A stretch of 64,000 nt of DNA from Bdellovibrio sp. (GTDB lineage Bacteria; Myxococcota; SpSt-1050). Location: the NCBI GenBank assembly GCA_020725805.1, contig DYEF01000074.1, positions 1 through 64,000 of the forward strand. Reading direction: 5' to 3'. The translations under genes and the position numbers were made by a program. The first letter of the stretch is position 1. Each line of letters starts with the position of its first letter. This document shows positions 1 to 63,711 of this stretch, piece after piece. The notes under the pieces were generated by a model. The model made no database searches, had not been told where the DNA came from, and saw nothing but the letters and a program-made list of their open reading frames with translations.

Positions 1-198
1 ATCCTCCTCCCAGAGCAAATCGGAACTGTCCCCATCTATGCTCTTATAAATACCGATTGAAAAGCTGAGATTACCGGTTACTCCGTTGCCGTCCTTATCC
101 GTAATATACCCCTGATGCGTTATCACCATAGGAATACCGGCGGCAGAAAGAACCACACCATATGTCAATAATAAAACCAGATAAAATACCTTCTTCAT
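1..198 (-). CDS. Partial secreted protein (N-terminal 66 residues)
   Basis: This gene runs off the left edge of the window, so only its first 66 codons are visible. It begins MKKVFYLVLLLTYGVVLSAA, a typical signal peptide with a short basic N-terminus and a hydrophobic core, so the product is exported. The mature start (residues about 21-66) contains a Gly/Asp-rich stretch, HQGYITDKDGNGVTGNLSFS, that resembles the start of a small beta-sandwich (transthyretin or Ig-like) domain, but the fragment is too short to name a family. A good ribosome site (GGAGGG) lies just upstream. The gene follows the lipoprotein gene by 20 bp and is probably co-transcribed with it. Confidence 0.75.
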   Translation of the reverse strand, partial: MKKVFYLVLLLTYGVVLSAAGIPMVITHQGYITDKDGNGVTGNLSFSIGIYKSIDGDSSDLLWEED

Positions 199-50684: not shown

Positions 50685-51923
50685 ATGCTTGATATTAATA
50701 ACAGAGAAACTGTTATAAAAAAGGCTTTTGGGGGTAGAGTGGAACTTTTTCCAAGTGTTAATGAATTATTTGAATTAGAATTAGCTTATCTTGAGTTTAA
50801 AAGTTTATCAGACGAACAACTTTTAGAAAGAACAGCTTATATAAAGTCAGTTGACAATAAATTCTCAAAGCATTACTTATTATATTCAAATAATTCGAAA
50901 AAAATTCATGCTGACAGGTCATCAACGACACAGGCATATTTTGAAGAAGGACAATTTTCTACAGGATACGCCACTCATGGATTATTCCCTTATCGTGGAA
51001 AATTTCATCCACAATTAATAAAAGGTTTAATAAATATTTTAAACATTCAAAAAGGTGAAACTATTTTAGATCCAATGGCTGGCAGCGGTACAACAAACAT
51101 TGAAGCAGCTTTAATGGGAATTAATTCCAAGGCGATAGATGTTAATCCTTTTTGTCAATTCATGATTAAAACAAAATATGAAGCACTAACTATTGACCTG
51201 AAATTATTAGAACAAACAAAAATTGAAAACAAAAAATTGTTTGATTTTTTCAAGCAAGGTGATGTATTGAAGAGAATAAATAAGATTGGTGATGATAATA
51301 AAATCAAAATATACAATCTTGCATTTTTAGCATTTTTAGACGCTTTGGGTTATTCAAAAAGAGTTGTAAAATCAAATCACGAACAATTATTTGGCAAGGT
51401 TTTACCAAGATATATTGATACTGTAAAATCATTTTTATCTAATCAATATTTTGACCAGAAAAAAATTGGCAATTTGGAAGTTTTATCAGATTCCAATGCT
51501 TTAAACATCAAACTCGAAAGTAATTCCGTTGACTGCGTAATAACCTCTCCGCCATATTCGTTTGCAATTGATTATGTTGAAAATGATAAAGAGCAATTAG
51601 AATTTTTAGGTTATGATACCTATGAATTAAAGAAAAAAATGATCGGTTTAAAAGGGGAAACAAAATTTGAAAAACTTGAAAAATATTTTGCTGACATGGA
51701 TACTTTTTGCTCGCAAGTCTCAAAAGTTATAAAAAGGAAAAAATTTTTTGTTTTGATAATTGGTTCAAATACAAATCAAACCGGAGGAATAAGATTGGAA
51801 GAAAAAGTGATAGATTCAGCCAAAAAACATGATATGACTTTAGTAAAAAGCATATTGAAACCCATTAAGGGAATGAGAAATACAATGAAAGAAGAATATA
51901 TTTTAATTTTTCAAAAGCAATAA
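50685..51923 (+). CDS. DNA methyltransferase with FxGxG-first motif order (probable N4-cytosine/N6-adenine)
   Basis: A 412-residue amino-methyltransferase. The SAM-binding motif I is LDPMAGSGTTNIEAA (128-142) and the catalytic motif IV is ITSPPYS (286-292), so motif I precedes IV. A Ser in SPPY more often goes with N4-cytosine enzymes, but the target base is not certain. The N-terminal 100 residues may help recognition. It has no SD (ATG preceded by T-rich sequence). It is followed 11 bp later by the restriction endonuclease gene, so it likely protects the host from that enzyme. Confidence 0.88.
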   Translation: MLDINNRETVIKKAFGGRVELFPSVNELFELELAYLEFKSLSDEQLLERTAYIKSVDNKFSKHYLLYSNNSKKIHADRSSTTQAYFEEGQFSTGYATHGLFPYRGKFHPQLIKGLINILNIQKGETILDPMAGSGTTNIEAALMGINSKAIDVNPFCQFMIKTKYEALTIDLKLLEQTKIENKKLFDFFKQGDVLKRINKIGDDNKIKIYNLAFLAFLDALGYSKRVVKSNHEQLFGKVLPRYIDTVKSFLSNQYFDQKKIGNLEVLSDSNALNIKLESNSVDCVITSPPYSFAIDYVENDKEQLEFLGYDTYELKKKMIGLKGETKFEKLEKYFADMDTFCSQVSKVIKRKKFFVLIIGSNTNQTGGIRLEEKVIDSAKKHDMTLVKSILKPIKGMRNTMKEEYILIFQKQ

Positions 51924-51934
51924 TTTTAAATTAC

Positions 51935-52909
51935 ATGACAAGAAGCATTGAAGATAAATTTCAAACAGTAATTCAAAAGAACACATTTTATTTTTTCAAC
52001 TCTAAGTTTGAAGATAATTATGAAGGTTATATCAATTCACTAAAAGAAACCCTTTTAATAGTAAAAAACAAGGTTGAAACAGAAGGTCTAAAAAAAGAAA
52101 TTTTTGAATGGCTTTTGTCAGAGAAAGAAAACGGTTTAAAAGCACTATTAGCATTAACTGGGTTTTCCAATGAATATTTAAAACGACTTACAACAATAAT
52201 TCGCATAGTTGATAATCCTGAACTCAATAAACTTGTTTATAAAGAAAAATGGTATAATGAGAAAAATCCTAATAATATTCAGGAATGGTCTGATGAAATA
52301 ATTTTAAAACACATCAGAAAAAATGAATATTTTAGAAAAGGTATAATTAATATTTTCTTTGAAGGTGCATCCATACCTTTTTTAGCTAATACGATCCCAC
52401 TTTTTGAATTAAAAAAACTTAGCATTTCAAAACTAAAATTTGAAATTCCTGAGTTAATTGATACTCTTATTCGTTATAAGGAAAAAGGTAGTTATTCTGG
52501 AAAGAAAGAGAATAATCCAGAAACTGTTATTACCGAAATATTGGAAAAATTAAGTATTTCGTTTGAAACTGGAGATTTAAGTGAACTTATTGCTAATGCC
52601 CCAGACAGCAAGCGGACAATGGACTTTATTATTCCTAATAAGAAAAATCCATTAATAATAATTGAAAGTTCTTTTTTGGTTACCACATCTTCAGGACAGG
52701 GGGATAAATCTAAAACTGAGATTTCTGTTGATAATTTAATTAAAGAACACTATCCCAAAGCAAGTTTTATTGGCTTTGTAGATGGTATAGGTTGGTATGT
52801 TAGAAAAGGTGATCTAAAAAGAATGGTAACGGCTTATGAAGATGTGTTTACTTATCACAAAGATGAATTAAAAAGATTTGAAAAATTCTTAAAAGATAAA
52901 CTATTATGA
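51935..52909 (+). CDS. DpnII/MboI-like type II restriction endonuclease
   Basis: A 324-residue putative nuclease. The C-terminal part matches the DpnII-type PD-(D/E)XK core as I know it: KRTMDFIIPNKK (Asp230), LIIIESSF (Glu244) and SSGQGDKSK (Lys258 region), then FIGFVDGIGWYVRKGDL, like the DG-x-GWY segment of that family. The N-terminal 180 residues are helical and probably bind DNA. The recognition sequence cannot be predicted. No SD; the stop overlaps the next ATG (ATGA). An upstream methyltransferase and a second one downstream are the expected partners. Confidence 0.7.
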   Translation: MTRSIEDKFQTVIQKNTFYFFNSKFEDNYEGYINSLKETLLIVKNKVETEGLKKEIFEWLLSEKENGLKALLALTGFSNEYLKRLTTIIRIVDNPELNKLVYKEKWYNEKNPNNIQEWSDEIILKHIRKNEYFRKGIINIFFEGASIPFLANTIPLFELKKLSISKLKFEIPELIDTLIRYKEKGSYSGKKENNPETVITEILEKLSISFETGDLSELIANAPDSKRTMDFIIPNKKNPLIIIESSFLVTTSSGQGDKSKTEISVDNLIKEHYPKASFIGFVDGIGWYVRKGDLKRMVTAYEDVFTYHKDELKRFEKFLKDKLL

Positions 52910-54564
52910 GTGAAATTAAATATGAATTTATTGGCATTGGGACACTTATTAAAAACAAAAATCTTAAAGTGCCGACACATCAAAGACCATATTCCTGGCA
53001 AACTGAGCATATTGAAGATTTATTGTATGACATAAAGAATAATTTTAATGAGGATGAGTATTTTCTAGGAACAATAGTATTGACTGCTGGAGATAACAAT
53101 AAAAATGAAATTGTTGATGGACAACAAAGAATAACTTCTGTTTCGTTAATATACGCTTCAATTCGTGATCTATTGCAAAATAAAACAGATTCTGATGAAA
53201 TACACACTAAATATCTAAGCACCTATGATATTCGAACTAAAGAATATTTCCCCAAGTTAGAATTAAGCCAACAGGATAATGAGTTTTATAGAAATTTAAT
53301 AATTAATAAACAGAACAATGCTGAGGCAAGAAGGTTATCTAATACTTATTTAAAAGATGCTTATCATACAATTTTTAATTTTATTACGAGAGTATTAAAA
53401 AATCATAATAATGATGAAAATGTATTAATTGACTGGAAAGATTTTTTAGATGAAAAATTAAAAGTTGTGGTTATAACTGTACCTACAGATGTGAATGCTT
53501 TTACAATTTTTGAAACATTGAACGATAGAGGATTGGCACTAGCACAAACCGATTTAATAAAAAATTATTTATACGGAAAAGCGGATAATAGAATAGATGA
53601 AGTTCAAAGAGCTTGGATAGAACTTGTTTCAAAGATAGAAACAGAAGATGAATCATTATTATTAACTTATATTAAACATTATTGGTTTGTTAATTATTCA
53701 TTTGTTCGTGAAAGCAAAAATGAACTATACAAAGAAATTAAAAATAAAATAAATAACTCTACTCAAGTAACCACTTTTGTAAATAACTTAAAGAATGACA
53801 TTGATATATATTTAGCAATTCTCAATCCTAACTCTTCTTTCTGGAACAACTTTGATAATCTGTGTAAAAACTATATTGAAACTCTTAATTATTTCAGCTT
53901 AGAGCAATACAGACCTCTAGTATTTTCAATTCTTAAAAAATTTCAACCTATTGAGGTAAAGAAATCGTTAAAACTTATCGTTTCTTGGCTTGTTAGAAAC
54001 TTAATTGTTGGAGGTTTAGGAGGAGGTACATTAGAAAAAGCATACGCTGAAAAAGCACATGCAATTATTTCTGAAAATATTAAAAATGCATCTGAGCTAA
54101 GAAATTCCTTAAGCTCCATAATTCCACAAGATGAAACATTTAAAGAACAATTTAGCATAGCAAGTGTTAGTAAAGCAAAATACGCAAGATATTACCTTGC
54201 TGCCATTGAAAATTATAAAAGAGGCAAAGAACATCCAGAACTCATAGTAAACTTAAATCCTGACTCTGTAAATCTTGAACACATTCTACCTGAAAACCCT
54301 GAAAATAATTACCCCAACTTTACAGAGGAACAACATACTGTCTATTATAAGAGGATAGGGAATCTTACTTTGATGAAAACAAAAGAAAACAATGACTTCA
54401 AAAGTTCTAAGTTTTCAGATAAAAAGAAAAAATATACAGAATCTGAATTATGGATAACTAATTCTTTAAGAGAATATGATGATTGGACAATTGAAACAAT
54501 AAATGAAAGACAATCAATTTTAGCTGAATTAGCTTTAAATACATGGTCATTAAGATTTGAATGA
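52906..54564 (+). CDS. GmrSD-type nuclease (DUF262-DUF1524 fusion)
   Basis: A 552-residue protein. The N-terminal DUF262 domain has KVPTHQRPYSW (21-31) and IVDGQQRITS (69-78), the nucleotide-binding ParB-like signature. The C-terminal DUF1524 domain has the HNH-like nuclease block LEHILPEN (near 457) and RIGNLTLMKTKENNDF (near 483-498). Relatives are type IV enzymes that cut DNA with modified (for example glucosylated hydroxymethyl) cytosine. It is coupled to the restriction gene (ATGA) and 1 bp from the second methyltransferase, so it is embedded in the type II operon. Confidence 0.88.
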   Translation: MSEIKYEFIGIGTLIKNKNLKVPTHQRPYSWQTEHIEDLLYDIKNNFNEDEYFLGTIVLTAGDNNKNEIVDGQQRITSVSLIYASIRDLLQNKTDSDEIHTKYLSTYDIRTKEYFPKLELSQQDNEFYRNLIINKQNNAEARRLSNTYLKDAYHTIFNFITRVLKNHNNDENVLIDWKDFLDEKLKVVVITVPTDVNAFTIFETLNDRGLALAQTDLIKNYLYGKADNRIDEVQRAWIELVSKIETEDESLLLTYIKHYWFVNYSFVRESKNELYKEIKNKINNSTQVTTFVNNLKNDIDIYLAILNPNSSFWNNFDNLCKNYIETLNYFSLEQYRPLVFSILKKFQPIEVKKSLKLIVSWLVRNLIVGGLGGGTLEKAYAEKAHAIISENIKNASELRNSLSSIIPQDETFKEQFSIASVSKAKYARYYLAAIENYKRGKEHPELIVNLNPDSVNLEHILPENPENNYPNFTEEQHTVYYKRIGNLTLMKTKENNDFKSSKFSDKKKKYTESELWITNSLREYDDWTIETINERQSILAELALNTWSLRFE

Positions 54565-54565
54565 T

Positions 54566-55663
54566 ATGATTGAAAAATATATTAACCAAATTCATCATGG
54601 AGATTGTCTAGAATTATTCAAGAATATTCCAGACAATTCGGTAGATGTTACTTTTGCTGATCCACCCTTTAATTTAAAAAAGAATTACTCAAGTTATTCG
54701 GATAGTTTAGAATTTCAAGAATACCTGGATTGGTGTGAAAAATGGATCAGTGAAATGGTAAGGGTTACCAAACCAACAGGATCTATATTCGTTCATAACA
54801 TTCCTAAATGGCTAACATATTATGCTGCATTTTTGAATAAACACGCTTATTTTAAACATTGGATCGCTTGGGATGCGCCCACCGCACCGATGGGAAAATC
54901 TTTGCAACCGGCACATTATGGCATCCTATTTTACACTAAAAAAGAAAAAGGAGCAAAAATTTATGAGTTAAGGCATCCGCATAAGCGCGATAGGAAATTA
55001 GGTTATTTACTAAAAGATTATGGCGGTAAAAAAGATGGATTACATCCTTTTGGACCTTTAGTTTCAGATGTTTGGACGGATATTCACAGGATAAAACACA
55101 ATACAAAAAGAGATCCACATCCATGTCAATTGCCTATTCATTTATTAGATAGAATTATATTAATGACTACTGATGAAGGTGATATTGTTTTAGACCCTTT
55201 TGCTGGAACCGGAACAACAGCAATCTCTGCAAAACGCCTTGGAAGAAAATTTATTGGATTTGAATTAGATAAAAAATATGTAGAAATATCTCGACAAAAA
55301 CTTGAAAGAACGCTACCTAACTTTAAATTAGGTGAAAGCTGGGTAAGCTTTTATTTGAATGATATTGTTACGATTAGAAATAATGACTGGCATAATCTTG
55401 CAAAATACTTTTCTATACCGAATCCATTACGGAATATTGATTTTGAACGAGTAAAATTAATTGACAAGAAATTAATTCCCAAAGAACCCGATATTGAAAA
55501 AGATGACTTTGAAAAAGAAAGCAAAATAGCAGAAAAGCCATCGAAAATAAATGAGAAAAAAATTATCGAGATTGAAAGCCCAATGCTAAGTCAGCCACAT
55601 TTGCAGGTCGCTCAGAATAGCCTAAAACCAAATCCTACTAAAAACCTGCCTTTTAAAATTTAA
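54566..55663 (+). CDS. Beta-class DNA methyltransferase
   Basis: A 365-residue amino-methyltransferase. Motif IV ADPPFNLKKNY (near 31-41) precedes motif I LDPFAGTGTTAISAKR (near 209-224), the beta-class order. The last 100 residues are a charged Lys/Glu-rich extension with no motif I recognise. The ATG at 54566 follows the nuclease stop directly (TGATATG). Two methyltransferases of different motif order in one type II operon suggest an asymmetric target with one enzyme per strand, or a second protecting ssDNA (inference). Confidence 0.9.
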   Translation: MIEKYINQIHHGDCLELFKNIPDNSVDVTFADPPFNLKKNYSSYSDSLEFQEYLDWCEKWISEMVRVTKPTGSIFVHNIPKWLTYYAAFLNKHAYFKHWIAWDAPTAPMGKSLQPAHYGILFYTKKEKGAKIYELRHPHKRDRKLGYLLKDYGGKKDGLHPFGPLVSDVWTDIHRIKHNTKRDPHPCQLPIHLLDRIILMTTDEGDIVLDPFAGTGTTAISAKRLGRKFIGFELDKKYVEISRQKLERTLPNFKLGESWVSFYLNDIVTIRNNDWHNLAKYFSIPNPLRNIDFERVKLIDKKLIPKEPDIEKDDFEKESKIAEKPSKINEKKIIEIESPMLSQPHLQVAQNSLKPNPTKNLPFKI

Positions 55664-56013: not shown

Positions 56014-57504
56014 TTATTCTATAAAATTGCAGCTGCAGGAGGAAGAAGAATCAGAAAGATGTGTATCTGCAATAGTGTCCAGTTTTGATATGTCTTCAAA
56101 AAACAGATTGTCCTCAATAACTGGTATGTCATTTGCTGACAGCCCATCTTCGGCAGAGGTATCGGATTTTGCCGGGATGTCTGAGAAAATAGTTGTATCA
56201 ACGTTTTCTGATGATTCATCTTCGGATAAAATATCTTCCTCTCTCATATCTTTTTCAACTCCGGCATCAATGCTCTCGTATTTTGCTATTATTTCCAGAT
56301 ACGGTCTTTTACTAATATCGGAGTATTCTTTTGAGTAAAATGCAGAACCATCGTCCGAAAGGGATATGATATTAAATGAATTTATTTCACCCTGCGAGAT
56401 AATAGACGTAACATCCCAGAAAACCATATCATTTACAGAAAAATATCCTTGATTTGATATAATATTTGTGTTTGGCACAGGCATATTATTGTATGTAAGA
56501 CTCTCCTCTTCCCAGTCATTATCAATCTGCCGGGATATGCCTCCCACATAACCCGAATTTGTCACATATGCCGACACTTTTGCTGAAATTATTTTATATC
56601 CCTTAAAATTATTTAGGTCAAACTTAAGAAAAATCACCCTTCCGTATGAACCACTTCCATCGCCGCCCACCTGAAAATTATCAAGACTGCCCTTTATAGA
56701 ATCAGGTTCTCCTTTTGATGTGAATGTGTCATCAATCGGGAGAATTCTCATTGTTATTATATGTCCAGTATCTTCTAATTGAGCGATATCATTACCAATA
56801 CCAGCATCTGTTGGATTACAAGGATTATTGATAAGTTTGGAATCTTCATTTACATATATCTTTATATTTTTATAGATAGTCCCGGGTTGTTCGCCGTAAT
56901 TTGGCTTTGTAGTCCTGTCTCTTCCAATAAGGATATAGCGGTAATAGGGTGGATAGATGTGAGTATATTCGTAGATTATATTGTTGTCCTTTATGACTTT
57001 AATATTTCCATTCAATTTCCATTCAACAATATACCTGTAGGTTGTGGTATAATCCCATTGATAGTTTGTCTCCACCCTTGCCTCATAATCTATCTCTGCA
57101 CCAGGCTCGCAGATAGGTCTTGTGAGGACCTTGTATTCACAGGGATCAAAATATCCGGTCCCGGTTCTTATAATAAAATAGGATTCTCCGGCAAGATGCA
57201 CCGAATCTCTCTCCTGTTTTTCTGTCTGATACATAGTTATTATATGACATTTCTCAGCATTTGGCTGCTGGCAGGGAAGGAAATTTTTTAGTTCTATCTC
57301 TAATCTTCCCTCACCATAAGCGACTCCAAGGTCATAGCTTATTCTTGAATCAGGACCAGAGGTTGCTACCCAGCCGTCCATTGTAAGCTCTCCGCCCTCC
57401 ATAATACCTTTTGTAGTACCTGAAAGCGGGTCATCGACCTTCAATACCTCTTCTGCAAAAATTAAAAGAGGTATAAAATTAAAAATAAAAATGTATTTTT
57501 TCAT
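56014..57504 (-). CDS. Secreted DNRLRE-type protein with acidic CxC tail
   Basis: A 496-residue exported protein. Signal peptide MKKYIFIFNFIPLLIFA; then a domain of about 200 residues shared with the divergent neighbour (GGELTMDGWVATSG here, GGEITSEGFRVTSQ there). Residues about 235-410 match the DNRLRE beta-sandwich (VIFLKFDLNNFKG, WEEESLTYNNMPVPN, FWDVTSII, YSDISKRPYLEII). A low-complexity tail of about 80 residues with repeated SDI/EDI/NDI steps ends SSSSCSCNFIE. The ATG at 57504 has no SD but sits 7 bases after a strong -10. It may be an adhesin or surface protein (inference). Confidence 0.75.
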   Translation of the reverse strand: MKKYIFIFNFIPLLIFAEEVLKVDDPLSGTTKGIMEGGELTMDGWVATSGPDSRISYDLGVAYGEGRLEIELKNFLPCQQPNAEKCHIITMYQTEKQERDSVHLAGESYFIIRTGTGYFDPCEYKVLTRPICEPGAEIDYEARVETNYQWDYTTTYRYIVEWKLNGNIKVIKDNNIIYEYTHIYPPYYRYILIGRDRTTKPNYGEQPGTIYKNIKIYVNEDSKLINNPCNPTDAGIGNDIAQLEDTGHIITMRILPIDDTFTSKGEPDSIKGSLDNFQVGGDGSGSYGRVIFLKFDLNNFKGYKIISAKVSAYVTNSGYVGGISRQIDNDWEEESLTYNNMPVPNTNIISNQGYFSVNDMVFWDVTSIISQGEINSFNIISLSDDGSAFYSKEYSDISKRPYLEIIAKYESIDAGVEKDMREEDILSEDESSENVDTTIFSDIPAKSDTSAEDGLSANDIPVIEDNLFFEDISKLDTIADTHLSDSSSSCSCNFIE

Positions 57505-57511
57505 AGTCAAA

Positions 57512-57540
57512 AGTATATCATCTGGCAAATGCTGTGTCAA
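57512..57540 (-). promoter_or_regulatory. Near-consensus sigma-70 promoter, apparently leaderless
   Basis: On the minus strand TTGACA (57540-57535), a 17-bp spacer and TATACT (57517-57512) form an almost ideal promoter. The ATG at 57504 lies 7 bases after the -10, where transcription would start, so the mRNA should be leaderless. This also explains the missing SD. Confidence 0.7.
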
Positions 57541-57554
57541 AACCTAGTTCAAAC

Positions 57555-57583
57555 TTGACGAAAAGATATTAAAGCTGTAGTAT
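57555..57583 (+). promoter_or_regulatory. Divergent sigma-70 promoter
   Basis: TTGACG (57555-57560), a 17-bp spacer and TAGTAT (57578-57583) precede the plus-strand secreted protein gene at 57612. Its -35 lies only 14 bp from that of the minus-strand promoter, so the two face away from each other and could share a regulator. Confidence 0.5.
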
Positions 57584-57611
57584 AAGCTTAGTCCCGGACG
57601 AGGTTTGTAAA

Positions 57612-58880
57612 ATGACAAACAGAAGATTTTTTTTATTCGTTAGTTTTTTAATGCTGATATCTTTAAGCTTGTATTCCTATGACCTATCTTTGTCTCTGAG
57701 TGACAGGAATGAACTTGATAGTTTGAACGCAATAATAAAAGGGGGAGAAATTACATCCGAGGGTTTCAGGGTAACTTCCCAGAATACAGGGTTGATTATT
57801 CCATTGCCTCAGGGAATCAATCCATCTCAGGGATATTTAAAAATAAAAATGACAAAATTTCCACAGAGCTGGCCGCATGAACCGGATATATGTCCAGATC
57901 CGGGAGTAGGGAGCCCTTGGGCAAAGACTGTATTCGGGATGGGGATATCTCCGGATAATTTATGGGAAGGTGAAGGAGGTCCTGGTTTTATTGAATCTCA
58001 TTATTTGAGGTGTGAGAATCCTTGTGACAGTGGATATCAGGGGGCATTCAGGCATAAGTTTAAAGGTGCTGGTGCTCAGGATACCTGCTGGGCTACAACT
58101 GTAATGTCTTATTACTTCTGTAATGACTCTGGACATATACTTGAAATAGAACACAGATGGGATATAAGCGGTCACTACTGGGTTCTTGAAGATGGTATTG
58201 AGAAGACGGCAAGAGGGGAATCGTGTGGAGTACTTGACAAGAATTTCAGATGGTATATTCATATTGCACATGGAAATGATAACGAATTCGCTACCAATGG
58301 AGATATAACAGGTGCGGTCTTTTTTGACCTTGTAGTTCATTTTGACGACGTGAATTCATTCTGCGGAGATGGGATTTGTAATGCAAATGAGAATTGTTCA
58401 GATTGTCCTCAGGACTGCGGCTGTAAATCGCCCTGTTATATTTGTAAACAAAACAAGTGTGAATGTAATTCCCCTAATTATGAATGTCCATCCTGTATAC
58501 CTTCCTGCAGTCAGAATGCTATTTTGAATCAGACAAGTACTTTATGCTGCGGTAAAAATAGCATTTGTGCCACAGGGAAGAGAGAGTTTGAGTCATATGA
58601 TTGTAATTTATGCTGTGAAGGGTTTGACTGCATAGTAGAGAATCTGAATGATGCAGGTGAAGGAGATACACCTGCAGAAGATATGGTAGAGAAAAATGAT
58701 CTGGATGAAAACAGTGATATAAATGGATTTGAAGATATATATAATGGGACGGAAGAAAGCATAGACCATGGTTCAGCAGTAGAGCTTACGTCAACTGATG
58801 TAGATGTTTTAAGATTTGATATATCATCTGGTTCTGAGAGCAGGGAGAATTCTGGCTGTAGTTGTGAATATTTGAAATGA
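57612..58880 (+). CDS. Secreted Cys-rich protein with CxC tail
   Basis: A 422-residue exported protein. The signal peptide (RFFLFVSFLMLISLSLYSYD) leads to a 200-residue beta-rich domain related to the N-terminal domain of the divergent gene. Residues about 255-345 are Cys-rich (CGDGICNANENCSDCPQDCG and following), like EGF or metallothionein-style knots seen in Myxococcota surface proteins. An acidic tail (EDMVEKNDLDENSDINGF...) ends SGCSCEYLK, mirroring the partner's SSCSCNFIE. GAGG precedes the ATG. Function unknown. Confidence 0.72.
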   Translation: MTNRRFFLFVSFLMLISLSLYSYDLSLSLSDRNELDSLNAIIKGGEITSEGFRVTSQNTGLIIPLPQGINPSQGYLKIKMTKFPQSWPHEPDICPDPGVGSPWAKTVFGMGISPDNLWEGEGGPGFIESHYLRCENPCDSGYQGAFRHKFKGAGAQDTCWATTVMSYYFCNDSGHILEIEHRWDISGHYWVLEDGIEKTARGESCGVLDKNFRWYIHIAHGNDNEFATNGDITGAVFFDLVVHFDDVNSFCGDGICNANENCSDCPQDCGCKSPCYICKQNKCECNSPNYECPSCIPSCSQNAILNQTSTLCCGKNSICATGKREFESYDCNLCCEGFDCIVENLNDAGEGDTPAEDMVEKNDLDENSDINGFEDIYNGTEESIDHGSAVELTSTDVDVLRFDISSGSESRENSGCSCEYLK

Positions 58881-59072: not shown

Positions 59073-62000
59073 ATGAATAAAGAATACAGCAACATATTCC
59101 GCAGCGAACTGAAAGATTTCGACAGAGATATCTTTCTTCTCTCTAAGGTTGAAGAGGAGAGACAGCTTCAGAAGATAGTCCTCATACCCTCCGAATCGAT
59201 TACGCCTTATCCGGTAAGGGAGGCACTCTCCACCGCCTTTGTAAGTATATATACGGAAGGTTATCCGCCGATAAGAATGACAAGGGAGGAAGAGAAGAAG
59301 GTCACCGATTATTACTATCAGATGGCAAGATACAGAAGGTATGCAGACAGGAGATTCTACAAAGGCTGTGATATTGCAAATCTCGTCGAGGTAATCGCCC
59401 AGAGGAGGGCAGCCAGATTATTTGCCACACCGAATCTTCCGGAAGATAAAATATACGTAAATGTCCAGCCGTTATCCGGTGCAGCGGGGAATAATGCAAT
59501 ATATGAGGCATTCGTTCAGCCCGGTGATGTGGTTATGGGTATGGCACTCTCTGAAGGCGGACACCTGACTCACGGCTCACCGTTCAACAGGTCGGGCAAG
59601 AGATATACGATAGTTTCGTATTCCGCCGACCCGAAGACCGAACTTCTGGACTACGACAGGATTATGCAGCAGGCAAAGGAGTCGAAGCCGAAGATGATAA
59701 TTGCAGGCTGGACCTCATACCCGTGGGCACCCGACTGGAAGAGATTCAGGGAGATAGCCGATGAGGTCGGGGCAAAACTTGTTGCAGATGTCTCACACCC
59801 TGCAGGACTCATTGTGGGAGGTGTCTATCCGAACCCGATTGAATACTGCGACGCTGTTATGTGCACGACACACAAGACACTCTGCGGGCCAAGAGGCGCG
59901 ATAATTCTTACAAAGGACGAGACGATTGCTGCAAGGATAGACAATTCCGTCTTTCCGGGTGAACAGGGCGGTCCTCACGTAAACAAGATGGCTGCAATGG
60001 CAATTGCATTTAAGATTGCCGATTCAGACCTCTTCAGGGAGATGATGAAACAGGTCGTGAAAAATGCATCAGCAATGGCAGACCAGTTTATAAAACGCGG
60101 GCTCAAACTCGCAAATAACGGGACAAACACACATATGCTCCTCATCGACCTGAACAAACTTCCGAATTCAAAGCCTCTTCCCGTCAAAGGCGAGATCGCC
60201 GCGAGGATTCTGGAACTCTGCGGGATTGTCCTGAATAAGAATACAATTGCCGGAGATCCAACAGCGGCACATGCCAGTGCCCTCAGAATAGGGACACCGT
60301 GGATTACGCAGCGTGGATACAGGGAAAAGGAGGTCAGAGAGCTTGCAGATATAATTACAGATATAATTCTGGACATAAAGCCGTTCTTCTATCAGGGTCT
60401 GACAGGACAGCTGCCGAGAGGGAAAGTCGAACACTCAACTATTATAAAAGGGAAAGAGCGGGTGCTCGGTCTAAATCAGTCAGTTGTGCTCAAATCCGAT
60501 GAGAAAATCGGTTATCCGTTTATGCCGTTTACACCTGTCAGAACCGAAAAGTCTGAGTATAAATACTCAGCAGAGACGGAAGTATTTCTGGAAATGAACA
60601 GATACGGCCTGTTCGAGATATCCGGTGAACGTCCGGGACACTTTTTGCATCAGGTTCTGACCGCCGATGTAATCAATATGAAGGCCGGAGAATCACTCGC
60701 ATCTCCGCTCTTTAATGCCGATGGAAAGCTTCTGGACTTTGTAAATATCTTCTGCGTATCCGATAAAAACGAAGATAAATTCATTATGGTCTGCAATCCC
60801 CACAGAAAAGATATGCTGCTCGAATACCTCCGGAATATATCAGACGGATATGTCGTATTCGACAGGGAAGATGTAACAAAGAAGATAGAGGGACCGGCAA
60901 ATATAATAGACCTTCAGGACGACCTCCTTCTCGAAAAGAAATTCAAGGGCCTTCTGTTTTCTCCAAAGGGACTGAAAAATGCCGAAAAGGTTCTGTCGAT
61001 GAATATCGGGGAAAAGGGCGGGTCATTCAAAGAGAATATTTATCTTTTTAACGTCACCGCTCTCAACGGAAACAGATATATAGCAGCGGTTATGACGGAA
61101 GATGTTTTCAAAAACACAAACTCCATGATAAAGGAAAGTGGCCTTGCTGAGACTGATCCAAACTCAATCTTACTTGTTGGCAAAGATGATGAACTGCTTA
61201 CCATAAAGGATTTTTATAAAAAATATCCCCAGTATTTCAAATCAGAAAAGGTATATTTTGCAGGCGAGCCGGTCATAAGGGAGGTTTTTGCCGCCAATTC
61301 AAAAAGTGTATCAAGGGAGAAATTCGTATTTGAGGAAAAGGAAGGCGAACTCAAGCGGACAGTCCTCTTTGACTGGCATAAGAAGAATGCACAAAAGGTA
61401 ATTCCGTTCGCAGGATGGGAGATGCCGGTATGGTACACAAGTATCCTCGATGAACACAATGTTGTAAGAAATGCAGCAGGGCTCTTCGATGTATCTCATA
61501 TGGGAGTTCTGGAGGTCAGAGGGAAGAACGTAGAGTCTTTTCTGAACATTCTGACTGCAAATTATGCCTCGTGGATACTGCCGGGACAATCCCAGTACAG
61601 CTATCTCTTCGACACAGAGGGAAATGTAATAGATGACATTATGCTTTACAGAAAATCCCGTGACTCATATATGATAGTTGTCAATGCAAGCAATGCGGAT
61701 AAAGACCTTGCGTGGATGAATTATGTAAATTCCGGAAAGGCGATTCTGTGCAGTAAGAGATCATATATCAACATCGACACACCGGTTGAAATCAGGAATC
61801 TAAAGGACAAAAGCAGTGGTAGTGAGATGAGAGTAGATATCTCCCTGCAGGGAAGAATGGCACTTCCGACCTTGCTCGATATTGCCGGCGCCCCCGACAG
61901 GAAGCAGAGAATCAGATCACTCAGGCGAACCGACTTTCTGGAGATAGAGATAGAGAAGGAGTCAGTAATCCTGTCGAGGACCGGATATACAGGCGAAGAG

Positions 62001-62582
62001 ATTGCATTTGAGCTTTATATACACCCTGATAAGGTTCTGAAAATCTGGGAACTTCTTCTTGATGCCGGCAAAAAATACGGGGTCAAACCCTGCGGACTCG
62101 GTGCAAGAGATTCACTCAGGACAGAGGCAGGACTGCCGCTCTATGGACACGAACTCGCAGGTCCGTACAATATCTCTCCTGCCGGCGCCGGATTCTCTCC
62201 GTATGTGAAACTCCACAAGCCGTTCTTCATCGGAAGGGATGCTTTCATCGAGTCAGAGAAGAAGAGGACAATGGAGATAATCAGGTTCATTATGACCAAC
62301 AAGATATCCCGGCCGGCAAAACAGAAGGATGTAGTAGTCAATGCACAGGGAGTTGCAATCGGTTATGTTACGTCCTCGGCGTTCAACGGAGAGGGGTATC
62401 AGGTCGGTCTTGCTTATGTTGACAGAAGACATATAAAGGAAGGTGCTAGAATCGGAATATATTGCTCACCATCTTCAAAGGCAAATGTAAATGTCGGAGA
62501 AGAGGTAAAAGTCGGGGACAGACTCGTTCTGCCTGAGCCCGCGACAATTCTCCCCAGATTCGAGAGGAAGAAGAAGAAGTAA
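59073..62582 (+). CDS. Serine hydroxymethyltransferase / glycine-cleavage T-protein fusion
   Basis: A single 1169-residue protein. Residues 1-460 are SHMT: Asp239 and His242 in VADVSHPAGL, PLP-Lys268 in CTTHKTLCGPRGA, GGHLTHGSPF (162-171). Residues about 500-610 resemble the N-terminal part of a GcvT fold (LFEISGERPGHFLHQVLTAD) but lack the catalytic VIDD, so are degenerate. Residues about 765-1165 are a complete GcvT: FDVSHMG, GNVIDDIMLYR with catalytic Asp, RTGYTGEEIAFELY and LGARDSLRTEAGLPLYGHEL. Both enzymes use tetrahydrofolate and glycine/serine, so the fusion could channel methylene-THF. SD AGGAGG is present. GcvH/GcvP are not in the window. Confidence 0.93.
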   Translation: MNKEYSNIFRSELKDFDRDIFLLSKVEEERQLQKIVLIPSESITPYPVREALSTAFVSIYTEGYPPIRMTREEEKKVTDYYYQMARYRRYADRRFYKGCDIANLVEVIAQRRAARLFATPNLPEDKIYVNVQPLSGAAGNNAIYEAFVQPGDVVMGMALSEGGHLTHGSPFNRSGKRYTIVSYSADPKTELLDYDRIMQQAKESKPKMIIAGWTSYPWAPDWKRFREIADEVGAKLVADVSHPAGLIVGGVYPNPIEYCDAVMCTTHKTLCGPRGAIILTKDETIAARIDNSVFPGEQGGPHVNKMAAMAIAFKIADSDLFREMMKQVVKNASAMADQFIKRGLKLANNGTNTHMLLIDLNKLPNSKPLPVKGEIAARILELCGIVLNKNTIAGDPTAAHASALRIGTPWITQRGYREKEVRELADIITDIILDIKPFFYQGLTGQLPRGKVEHSTIIKGKERVLGLNQSVVLKSDEKIGYPFMPFTPVRTEKSEYKYSAETEVFLEMNRYGLFEISGERPGHFLHQVLTADVINMKAGESLASPLFNADGKLLDFVNIFCVSDKNEDKFIMVCNPHRKDMLLEYLRNISDGYVVFDREDVTKKIEGPANIIDLQDDLLLEKKFKGLLFSPKGLKNAEKVLSMNIGEKGGSFKENIYLFNVTALNGNRYIAAVMTEDVFKNTNSMIKESGLAETDPNSILLVGKDDELLTIKDFYKKYPQYFKSEKVYFAGEPVIREVFAANSKSVSREKFVFEEKEGELKRTVLFDWHKKNAQKVIPFAGWEMPVWYTSILDEHNVVRNAAGLFDVSHMGVLEVRGKNVESFLNILTANYASWILPGQSQYSYLFDTEGNVIDDIMLYRKSRDSYMIVVNASNADKDLAWMNYVNSGKAILCSKRSYINIDTPVEIRNLKDKSSGSEMRVDISLQGRMALPTLLDIAGAPDRKQRIRSLRRTDFLEIEIEKESVILSRTGYTGEEIAFELYIHPDKVLKIWELLLDAGKKYGVKPCGLGARDSLRTEAGLPLYGHELAGPYNISPAGAGFSPYVKLHKPFFIGRDAFIESEKKRTMEIIRFIMTNKISRPAKQKDVVVNAQGVAIGYVTSSAFNGEGYQVGLAYVDRRHIKEGARIGIYCSPSSKANVNVGEEVKVGDRLVLPEPATILPRFERKKKK

Positions 62583-62709: not shown

Positions 62710-63711
62710 TTATCTTGATTTTTTGAAAAGAACTAATTCTTCCGAATATTTCTTACTTCTCTTTATATCCTCTCTCTTCTGATAACTCAGTGTATTTCTC
62801 TCCCAGAATACGCCGTCTGAATATCCCTGTATTCTTTTATCGTTTTCAGCAAGTTCAAGCCTTTTCTCCGCAAGACAGCAATAATCAGTGTTTATCTCGA
62901 TCCCGCAGTAATTACGACCCAGCTTCTTTGCTACAACCGAAGTTGTCCCTGAGCCCAGAAACGGGTCAAAGACAAGTCCCCCCGCAGGAGAGCTTGCAAG
63001 AATGAGCTTTGCTATAAGTTTTTCGGGTTTTTGTGTCGGGTGGTCTGTGTTTTCGGGCATCGACCAGTAAGGGACTGTTATATCATCCCAGAAGTTCGAA
63101 GGATATGTAAGACGAAAATTCCCCTCTCCGGTCTCTATCCAGTCCTTTGGTTTGCCGTCTTCCCTGTAAGGTGCGATTACCCTTCTCTTCATCTTAACTG
63201 ACTCAACATCAAAGTAGTAATCATCAGATACTGTTGCAAACCAGATATCCTCGGTGCAGTTCTTCCAGTTCTTCTTTGCCCCTCTCCCCTTCTCTCTCTG
63301 CCAGTTAATTCTGTTTCTGACTATGAGATATTCTGAAACAACCTGATAAATGGCGGCAGTACACCTCCAGTCGCCGCAGATATAAAGACTGCCATTTGAT
63401 TTTAATAATCTCACTACCTTTGGAAACCAGCTCCTCAGATAACTGATATATGTATCGTTGTCGGATTTGCTGAATCTGTAACCTCCGAAATTCTTGTCCA
63501 GATTGTATGGCGGGTCGATTATCATCAGGTCAACTGATTTTTCAGGGAAGAGGTCTATTACTTCAAAGAGGTCGTTATTGAAGGTTTTGTTAATAATCTC
63601 TTTTAAACTCATCTTTCCGGTCGCAAATGCAAGGCGACTCTTGTAGAGTTCCTTCTCACTATCACTAAGAGTTATTGTCCTGTTTCTCGGAGCTCTCTCT
63701 TTTTCCGGCAT
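62710..63711 (-). CDS. Solitary beta-class DNA methyltransferase
   Basis: A 333-residue amino-methyltransferase. Motif IV IDPPYNLDKNFGG (near 65-77) precedes motif I FDPFLGSGTTSVVAKKLG (near 249-266). DPPY favours N6-adenine, and the motif neighbourhood (TDHPTQKPEKL) is typical. It has an SD (GAGGGG) and backbone-like base composition, unlike the island enzymes. No nuclease is adjacent inside the window, so it may be an orphan regulator-type methylase or part of a system that continues beyond 64000. Confidence 0.9.
   Translation of the reverse strand: MPEKERAPRNRTITLSDSEKELYKSRLAFATGKMSLKEIINKTFNNDLFEVIDLFPEKSVDLMIIDPPYNLDKNFGGYRFSKSDNDTYISYLRSWFPKVVRLLKSNGSLYICGDWRCTAAIYQVVSEYLIVRNRINWQREKGRGAKKNWKNCTEDIWFATVSDDYYFDVESVKMKRRVIAPYREDGKPKDWIETGEGNFRLTYPSNFWDDITVPYWSMPENTDHPTQKPEKLIAKLILASSPAGGLVFDPFLGSGTTSVVAKKLGRNYCGIEINTDYCCLAEKRLELAENDKRIQGYSDGVFWERNTLSYQKREDIKRSKKYSEELVLFKKSR

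Follow-up and report, generated by a model that had tools for sequence, protein, structure and literature searches.

The closest described counterpart of the tail reported here is MYXO-CTERM, a tripartite C-terminal tag that includes a membrane helix and has been called universal in Myxococcota (PMC11980579). Its cysteine motif is GCGC, and its cleavage by the myxosortase MrtX is cysteine-dependent; in M. xanthus, 35 proteins are tagged in this way, all of them with signal peptides (PMC11980579). Cysteine lipidation and transport to the surface by type II secretion (T2SS) are the proposed steps adjoining myxosortase cleavage in this organism; both MrtX cleavage and, for the tagged protein TraA, surface localisation depend on the MYXO-CTERM cysteines, and a TraA from which the MYXO-CTERM is missing ends up in the medium (PMC11980579). 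We describe here a short cysteine tail found at the end of both proteins of a divergent gene pair, located at positions 56014-58880 of the window, i.e., the whole stretch of 64,000 nucleotides analysed.

A divergent gene pair with terminal CxC tails

Proteins A and B are encoded by two real ORFs of the window that are divergently oriented, with 107 bases separating their start codons. For protein A, the ATG at 57504 was preferred over the TTG at 57540 as initiation codon. Their features are as follows:

56014..57504, − strand: gene of secreted protein A (496 aa), an ORF with its ATG start picked by the signal peptide; its parts are a signal peptide, a GGE domain, a CBM96 domain, an acidic linker and a CSC tail
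57454..57504, − strand: signal peptide of protein A, MKKYIFIFNFIPLLIFA, with a hydrophobic core of 2.64
57280..57417, − strand: N-terminal GGELT domain region of protein A, common to protein B and the same-genus protein L314 (sequence comparison)
56290..56751, − strand: CBM96/DNRLRE domain of protein A, residues 252-405 (CBM96, 66 bits; DNRLRE, 70 bits)
56044..56274, − strand: acidic linker of protein A, rich in D, S and E (sequence)
56017..56043, − strand (stop at 56014-56016): C-terminal tail SSCSCNFIE of protein A, which ends SSSSCSCNFIE (sequence and profile match)
57612..58880, + strand: gene of secreted protein B (422 aa), an ORF; its parts are a signal peptide, a GGE domain, a Cys-rich segment, an acidic linker and a CSC tail
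57612..57680, + strand: signal peptide of protein B, with a hydrophobic core of 2.72
57720..57860, + strand: N-terminal GGEIT domain region of protein B (sequence comparison)
58650..58850, + strand: acidic linker of protein B (sequence)
58851..58877, + strand: C-terminal tail SGCSCEYLK of protein B, which ends ENSGCSCEYLK (sequence and profile match)

An earlier note on this DNA had described two divergent ORFs with acidic linkers and a terminal CxC that no helix follows, and this description is borne out, both ORFs being present. The same note had given the two proteins a shared N-terminal GGE-(I/L)T domain; the direct match between the GGE(I/L)T regions of A and B turned out to be weak (about 30% over ~47 aa, E 0.02), but the same-genus protein L314 (GGEWTSDGWKVT), whose tail is NGCSCTTLSID, is similar to A as well as to B (E 8e-6 and 1e-7) and, thanks to this bridge, an N-terminal domain common to the two is likely. 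Outside the GGE region, A and B differ, A having the CBM96/DNRLRE domain and B the Cys-rich segment; protein B matched no Pfam or NCBIfam family.

As to the surroundings of the pair, three DNA-methyltransferase-like ORFs and a DUF262/GmrSD-like ORF (52906-54564) adjoin it at 50685-55663 and 62710-63711 of the window, a set that, judged by eye from the translations, resembles a restriction or defence cluster. A single ORF of 1169 aa at 59073-62582 (+ strand) fuses a serine hydroxymethyltransferase (PF00464) with a glycine-cleavage T protein region (PF01571, in two stretches).

Genome-wide occurrence of the tail and its carriers

The genome to which the window belongs is a draft assembly of 3.29 Mb in 115 contigs, 97.9% complete. 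Tail carriers were searched for with DNA patterns and a nine-position profile, followed by ORF reading, and their count is a lower bound. No fewer than 39 proteins encoded in the genome carry the tail, in the tag form …SGCSC-x-L-I-E. Its consensus is [S/D/E][G/S/A]-C-[S/G/A]-C-[S/N/T]-Φ-Φ-[E/D/F/Y], the second Cys standing nearly always exactly four residues before the end. When the genome was scanned for G/A-C-S(TCN)-C-N{9..12}-stop, 22 of the 29 matches had exactly four codons before the stop, the other spacings yielding 3, 1 and 3, and the reversed control of this pattern gave 12 matches in total; the tail is thus far more frequent in this genome than expected by chance.

Among the 39 tails, we counted G 32 times at position -8, C 37 times at -7, S 33 times at -6 and C 37 times at -5, followed by S/N/T in 32 tails at -4, L/F/I/Y/V in 34 at -3 and I/L/V/M in 36 at -2; at the last position (-1), two classes can be distinguished, E/D (23) and F/Y (12). 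The exceptions at -5 and -7 come from two tails offset by one residue, C-x-C itself being invariant, and the signature varies between GCSC, GCGC, GCAC and ACSC. The linker that precedes the tail is, across the tail set, rich in D (18.6%), S (11.4%) and T (9.5%). Since no NCBIfam model matched more than 3 of the 39 proteins, none of these models covers the shared tail. The genes frequently lie in adjacent pairs, tandem or divergent, as in the window (L069, L081, L088 and L091 of the same genome).

A signal-peptide-like N-terminus was detected by a crude hydrophobicity rule in all 37 tail proteins with a complete start, versus 16 of 39 control genes. The domains matched in the carriers include papain-like, subtilase (S8) and matrixin-like proteases, VWA, FG-GAP, kelch, SBBP, phosphatases and divergent InlB repeats; by these domain assignments, the carriers are surface or secreted types of proteins, otherwise mostly unrelated. 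Some of them have Cys-rich or MopE copper-binding motifs. Two tagged proteins (L075:190-5412 and L078:4017-6164) also have an N-terminal lipobox-like Cys and might carry a lipid at both ends. The T2SS secretin GspD is present in the genome (588 bits).

Conservation and distribution

The genus is represented by two independently assembled genomes, our own (G000) and a second one (G167), and the same tails are found in the latter. In the 16 reciprocal-best pairs between them, positions -8 to -5 are identical in every pair, pair-specific variants (GCGC, ACSC, SCSC) being also kept within pairs; the linker at -13 to -60 has a mean ungapped identity of 31% across the same pairs. Within the phylum, which the spread of MYXO-CTERM and myxosortases among its genomes indicates to be Myxococcota, only these two of 195 genomes have the tail above chance. 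Twelve other genomes with one profile match each were rejected as chance frames, mostly short ORFs devoid of linker. A GTDB-wide DNA scan for GC(TCN)C-S-L-[I/V/M]-E-stop, a pattern that covers the commonest form only, in a set that may omit the own genome or close ones, returned no match, and no description of such a helix-free tag turned up in the literature searches.

No helix form of MYXO-CTERM detected

The MYXO-CTERM model TIGR03901 has no match in either genome of the genus; it matches 30 of the 39 genomes searched, among them a genome of the same order. One has to bear in mind that this model overlooks some true tags (in G188 and G191, for example), so that its zero is not, alone, a proof of absence. 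A looser scan for helix tails was, therefore, also considered: in 404 kb of the own genome, its only match was a transporter-like end; 127 kb of G167 gave no match, whereas 22 tripartite tails were recovered from 28 homologous loci in other genomes.

The hydrophobicity of the C-termini of the tail proteins is low, with no hydrophobic helix after the signature, and the Arg-rich cytoplasmic end is absent as well, the proteins ending in x-Φ-Φ-E/D/F/Y. In the DNA downstream of the tail stops, no membrane helix is consistently encoded in any frame; the stops, hence, do not truncate a longer tail. Read-through of a stop codon or a frameshift concealing a helix was ruled out by this downstream DNA, considered in all frames.

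The myxosortase-dependent metalloprotease family NF041905 allows the two kinds of ends to be compared in homologous proteins. All the members compared have in common the domain end …DDI-x-G-x-C-x-I-Y…; homologues elsewhere continue with a Cys motif GC(x)C, a membrane helix and Arg residues, and the members of the two genus genomes continue with SGCSCSTISY and NGCSCSILSY, and then stop. Going by this comparison, the tail occupies the MYXO-CTERM position in one shared protein family. In the genus as a whole, it seems to have supplanted MYXO-CTERM, the myxosortase being kept.

A single myxosortase-like protease

Each genome of the genus encodes exactly one PF02517 (CPBP) protease, the core of the G000 enzyme (L136) being located at C2:42719-43027. 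The protease scores above the cutoff of 100 of the NF040914 Mrt_core model in both genomes (117.9 bits in G000 and 109.6 bits in G167), a model that matches 190 of the 195 genomes of the phylum, and falls under the specific cutoffs for MrtX, MrtC and MrtP (83.3/180, 135.7/195 and 160/250 as score/cutoff). The catalytic residues are invariant (PEExxxR, FxxxH and HxxxN; E127, E128, R132, F163, H167, H203 and N207). In the PDB, the CAAX protease Rce1 (4CAD) matches the AlphaFold model (pLDDT 95.8) best (prob 0.99, E 0.028), with a TM-score of only 0.45.

In a quick, preliminary tree, the protease pair of the genus (L136/L137) sits on an exceptionally long stem of 1.47 changes per column, unusual composition being flagged in both rows, and is not grouped with the protease of the same-order genome. 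Such a stem fits a changed specificity; fast evolution or composition could also be its cause. Neither a tail gene nor an obvious lipid transferase adjoins the protease gene. Its neighbours (CoA-dehydratase genes, ispDF and a TPR protein) were considered as partners and rejected, nothing indicating one.

Proposed mechanism and alternative explanations

We consider it rather probable that the tail is a helix-less, CAAX-box-like variant descended from the MYXO-CTERM/myxosortase system. Its probable function is to tag proteins for lipid anchoring, in a manner not previously described, since it resembles MYXO-CTERM minus the helix and the genome keeps a matching myxosortase; we infer lipidation, cleavage, surface location and the action of the protease on the tail, all four. 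It is quite possible, although we put this forward more tentatively, that we are dealing with a bacterial, helix-free system akin to the CAAX box, which lipidates and sorts exported surface proteins by their C-terminus, arose from MYXO-CTERM through loss of the helix and is served by a retuned myxosortase; it would stand, as a natural intermediate, between CAAX boxes and sortase tags of the helix type. Under the favoured reading, that of a helix-less MYXO-CTERM variant, Sec would carry the tagged proteins over the inner membrane and, as the last residues emerge, a Cys of GCSC would receive a lipid from an Lgt-like transferase or one not yet known, the same step as has been proposed for MYXO-CTERM; the only myxosortase, which is an intramembrane protease of the CPBP/Rce1 type, would trim x-Φ-Φ-x beyond the lipidated Cys, like Rce1 on the CAAX box, and the T2SS would then deliver the proteins, held by their lipid, to the cell surface. 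The tail would be the minimum for cysteine chemistry together with a short hydrophobic end, in the manner of a CAAX box (C-x-Φ-Φ-x vs. C-a-a-X).

The earlier note had suggested that a new signal for export or anchoring may be at hand, and for the most part this is borne out by the two checks it had proposed, a scan for more proteins with the tail (at least 39 in the genome) and its conservation in orthologues (16 of 16 pairs), sorting or anchoring being the best reading. The resemblance to MYXO-CTERM and the missing helix that it had pointed out both hold; the contrast it had drawn between the two is better read as descent, MYXO-CTERM having apparently been replaced.

Several observations speak against descent from MYXO-CTERM with retention of its protease: known myxosortase substrates are held at the enzyme by a membrane helix, which this tail lacks; the protease adjoins no tail gene or lipid transferase and lies under the MrtX/MrtC/MrtP cutoffs; and on the two tagged proteins with an N-terminal lipobox, a second lipid anchor would be redundant. 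The tail alone might, instead, be the lipidation or anchoring signal, an unknown enzyme modifying the cysteines after export, with the last four residues as mere recognition and the myxosortase serving other substrates. The missing helix, which would present the tail to an intramembrane protease, is in line with this, as are the very long stem (1.47) and the scores under the specific myxosortase cutoffs; we nevertheless hold it unlikely, as the protease is the sole CPBP protease in both genomes, with intact catalytic residues, and a myxosortase with other substrates would lack known ones, no classical substrate having been detected. CxC motifs close to C-termini bind copper in CCS-type chaperones, and this precedent, along with the Cys-rich or MopE copper-binding motifs of some carriers, would suit a redox or metal site, or disulfide cross-links among surface proteins; such roles are very improbable given that the carriers are unrelated, that the position equals that of MYXO-CTERM and that the hydrophobic end would be left without a role.

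The exact C-terminal position of the tail, its hydrophobic-acidic end and the presence of a T2SS might also be expected of a recognition signal for export across the outer membrane, by the T2SS or another route, in which nothing is covalently modified. This we regard as distinctly unlikely: two strictly conserved Cys exceed the needs of a docking peptide, the MYXO-CTERM equivalent relies on its cysteines for MrtX cleavage and TraA surface localisation, and the export of TraA is independent of the tag because TraA without MYXO-CTERM reaches the medium (PMC11980579). Finally, an artefact of assembly truncation, stop-codon recoding or gene prediction concealing an ordinary helix tail, as might be feared of a draft in 115 contigs, is hardly conceivable, since no helix is consistently encoded past the stops in any frame and the same tails occur in the independent assembly of the same genus.

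Significance and comparison with known systems

A genus with the Cys signature and a myxosortase but without the helix would make it possible to disentangle the role of the helix from that of the cysteines, and a nine-residue tag makes the cysteine-lipidating enzyme and the recognition by the protease directly testable. In exported bacterial proteins, the tail offers a parallel to the CAAX/Rce1 logic; it also provides a simple motif for annotating surface proteins overlooked by current models, and its use as a minimal tag for surface display is conceivable.

With MYXO-CTERM, the tail shares the phylum, a GCxC signature behind a low-complexity acidic linker, dozens of exported carriers with signal peptides, and the equivalent place in a homologous metalloprotease family; it differs in having no transmembrane helix, no Arg cluster and a fixed end of about four residues, and in being invisible to TIGR03901. 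Helix and Arg cluster having been tested and found absent, the tail is not classed as MYXO-CTERM. Like the myxosortases MrtX/MrtC/MrtP (NF040914 core, CPBP), the enzyme of the genus is a single CPBP protease above the Mrt_core cutoff, with PEExxxR and HxxxN, but it falls below the specific cutoffs, on a long stem, and its natural substrates would be helix-free. In GlyGly-CTERM/rhombosortase, PEP-CTERM/exosortase and JDVT-CTERM/MrtJ, a C-terminal sorting tag is likewise paired with a membrane protease of its own; a membrane helix and a basic end belong to those tags, unlike the present one.

The C-terminal CxC/CC of Rab-type proteins belongs to doubly prenylated cytosolic eukaryotic proteins; two C-terminal cysteines are the common point, whereas the cytosolic location, the eukaryotic host, the other enzymes and the lack of a Φ-Φ-x end set them apart. 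As for the CAAX box and Rce1 (eukaryotes, and archaeal MmRce1), the carriers here are exported instead of cytosolic, prenylation is not indicated, and the second Cys stands at -5 where a CAAX box has its Cys fourth from the end, the hydrophobic residues at -3 and -2 being as in a CAAX box; shared with that system are the very short C-terminal tail, in which a Cys is accompanied by two hydrophobic residues and the last residue varies, the presence of a CPBP protease, and 4CAD as the best fold match.
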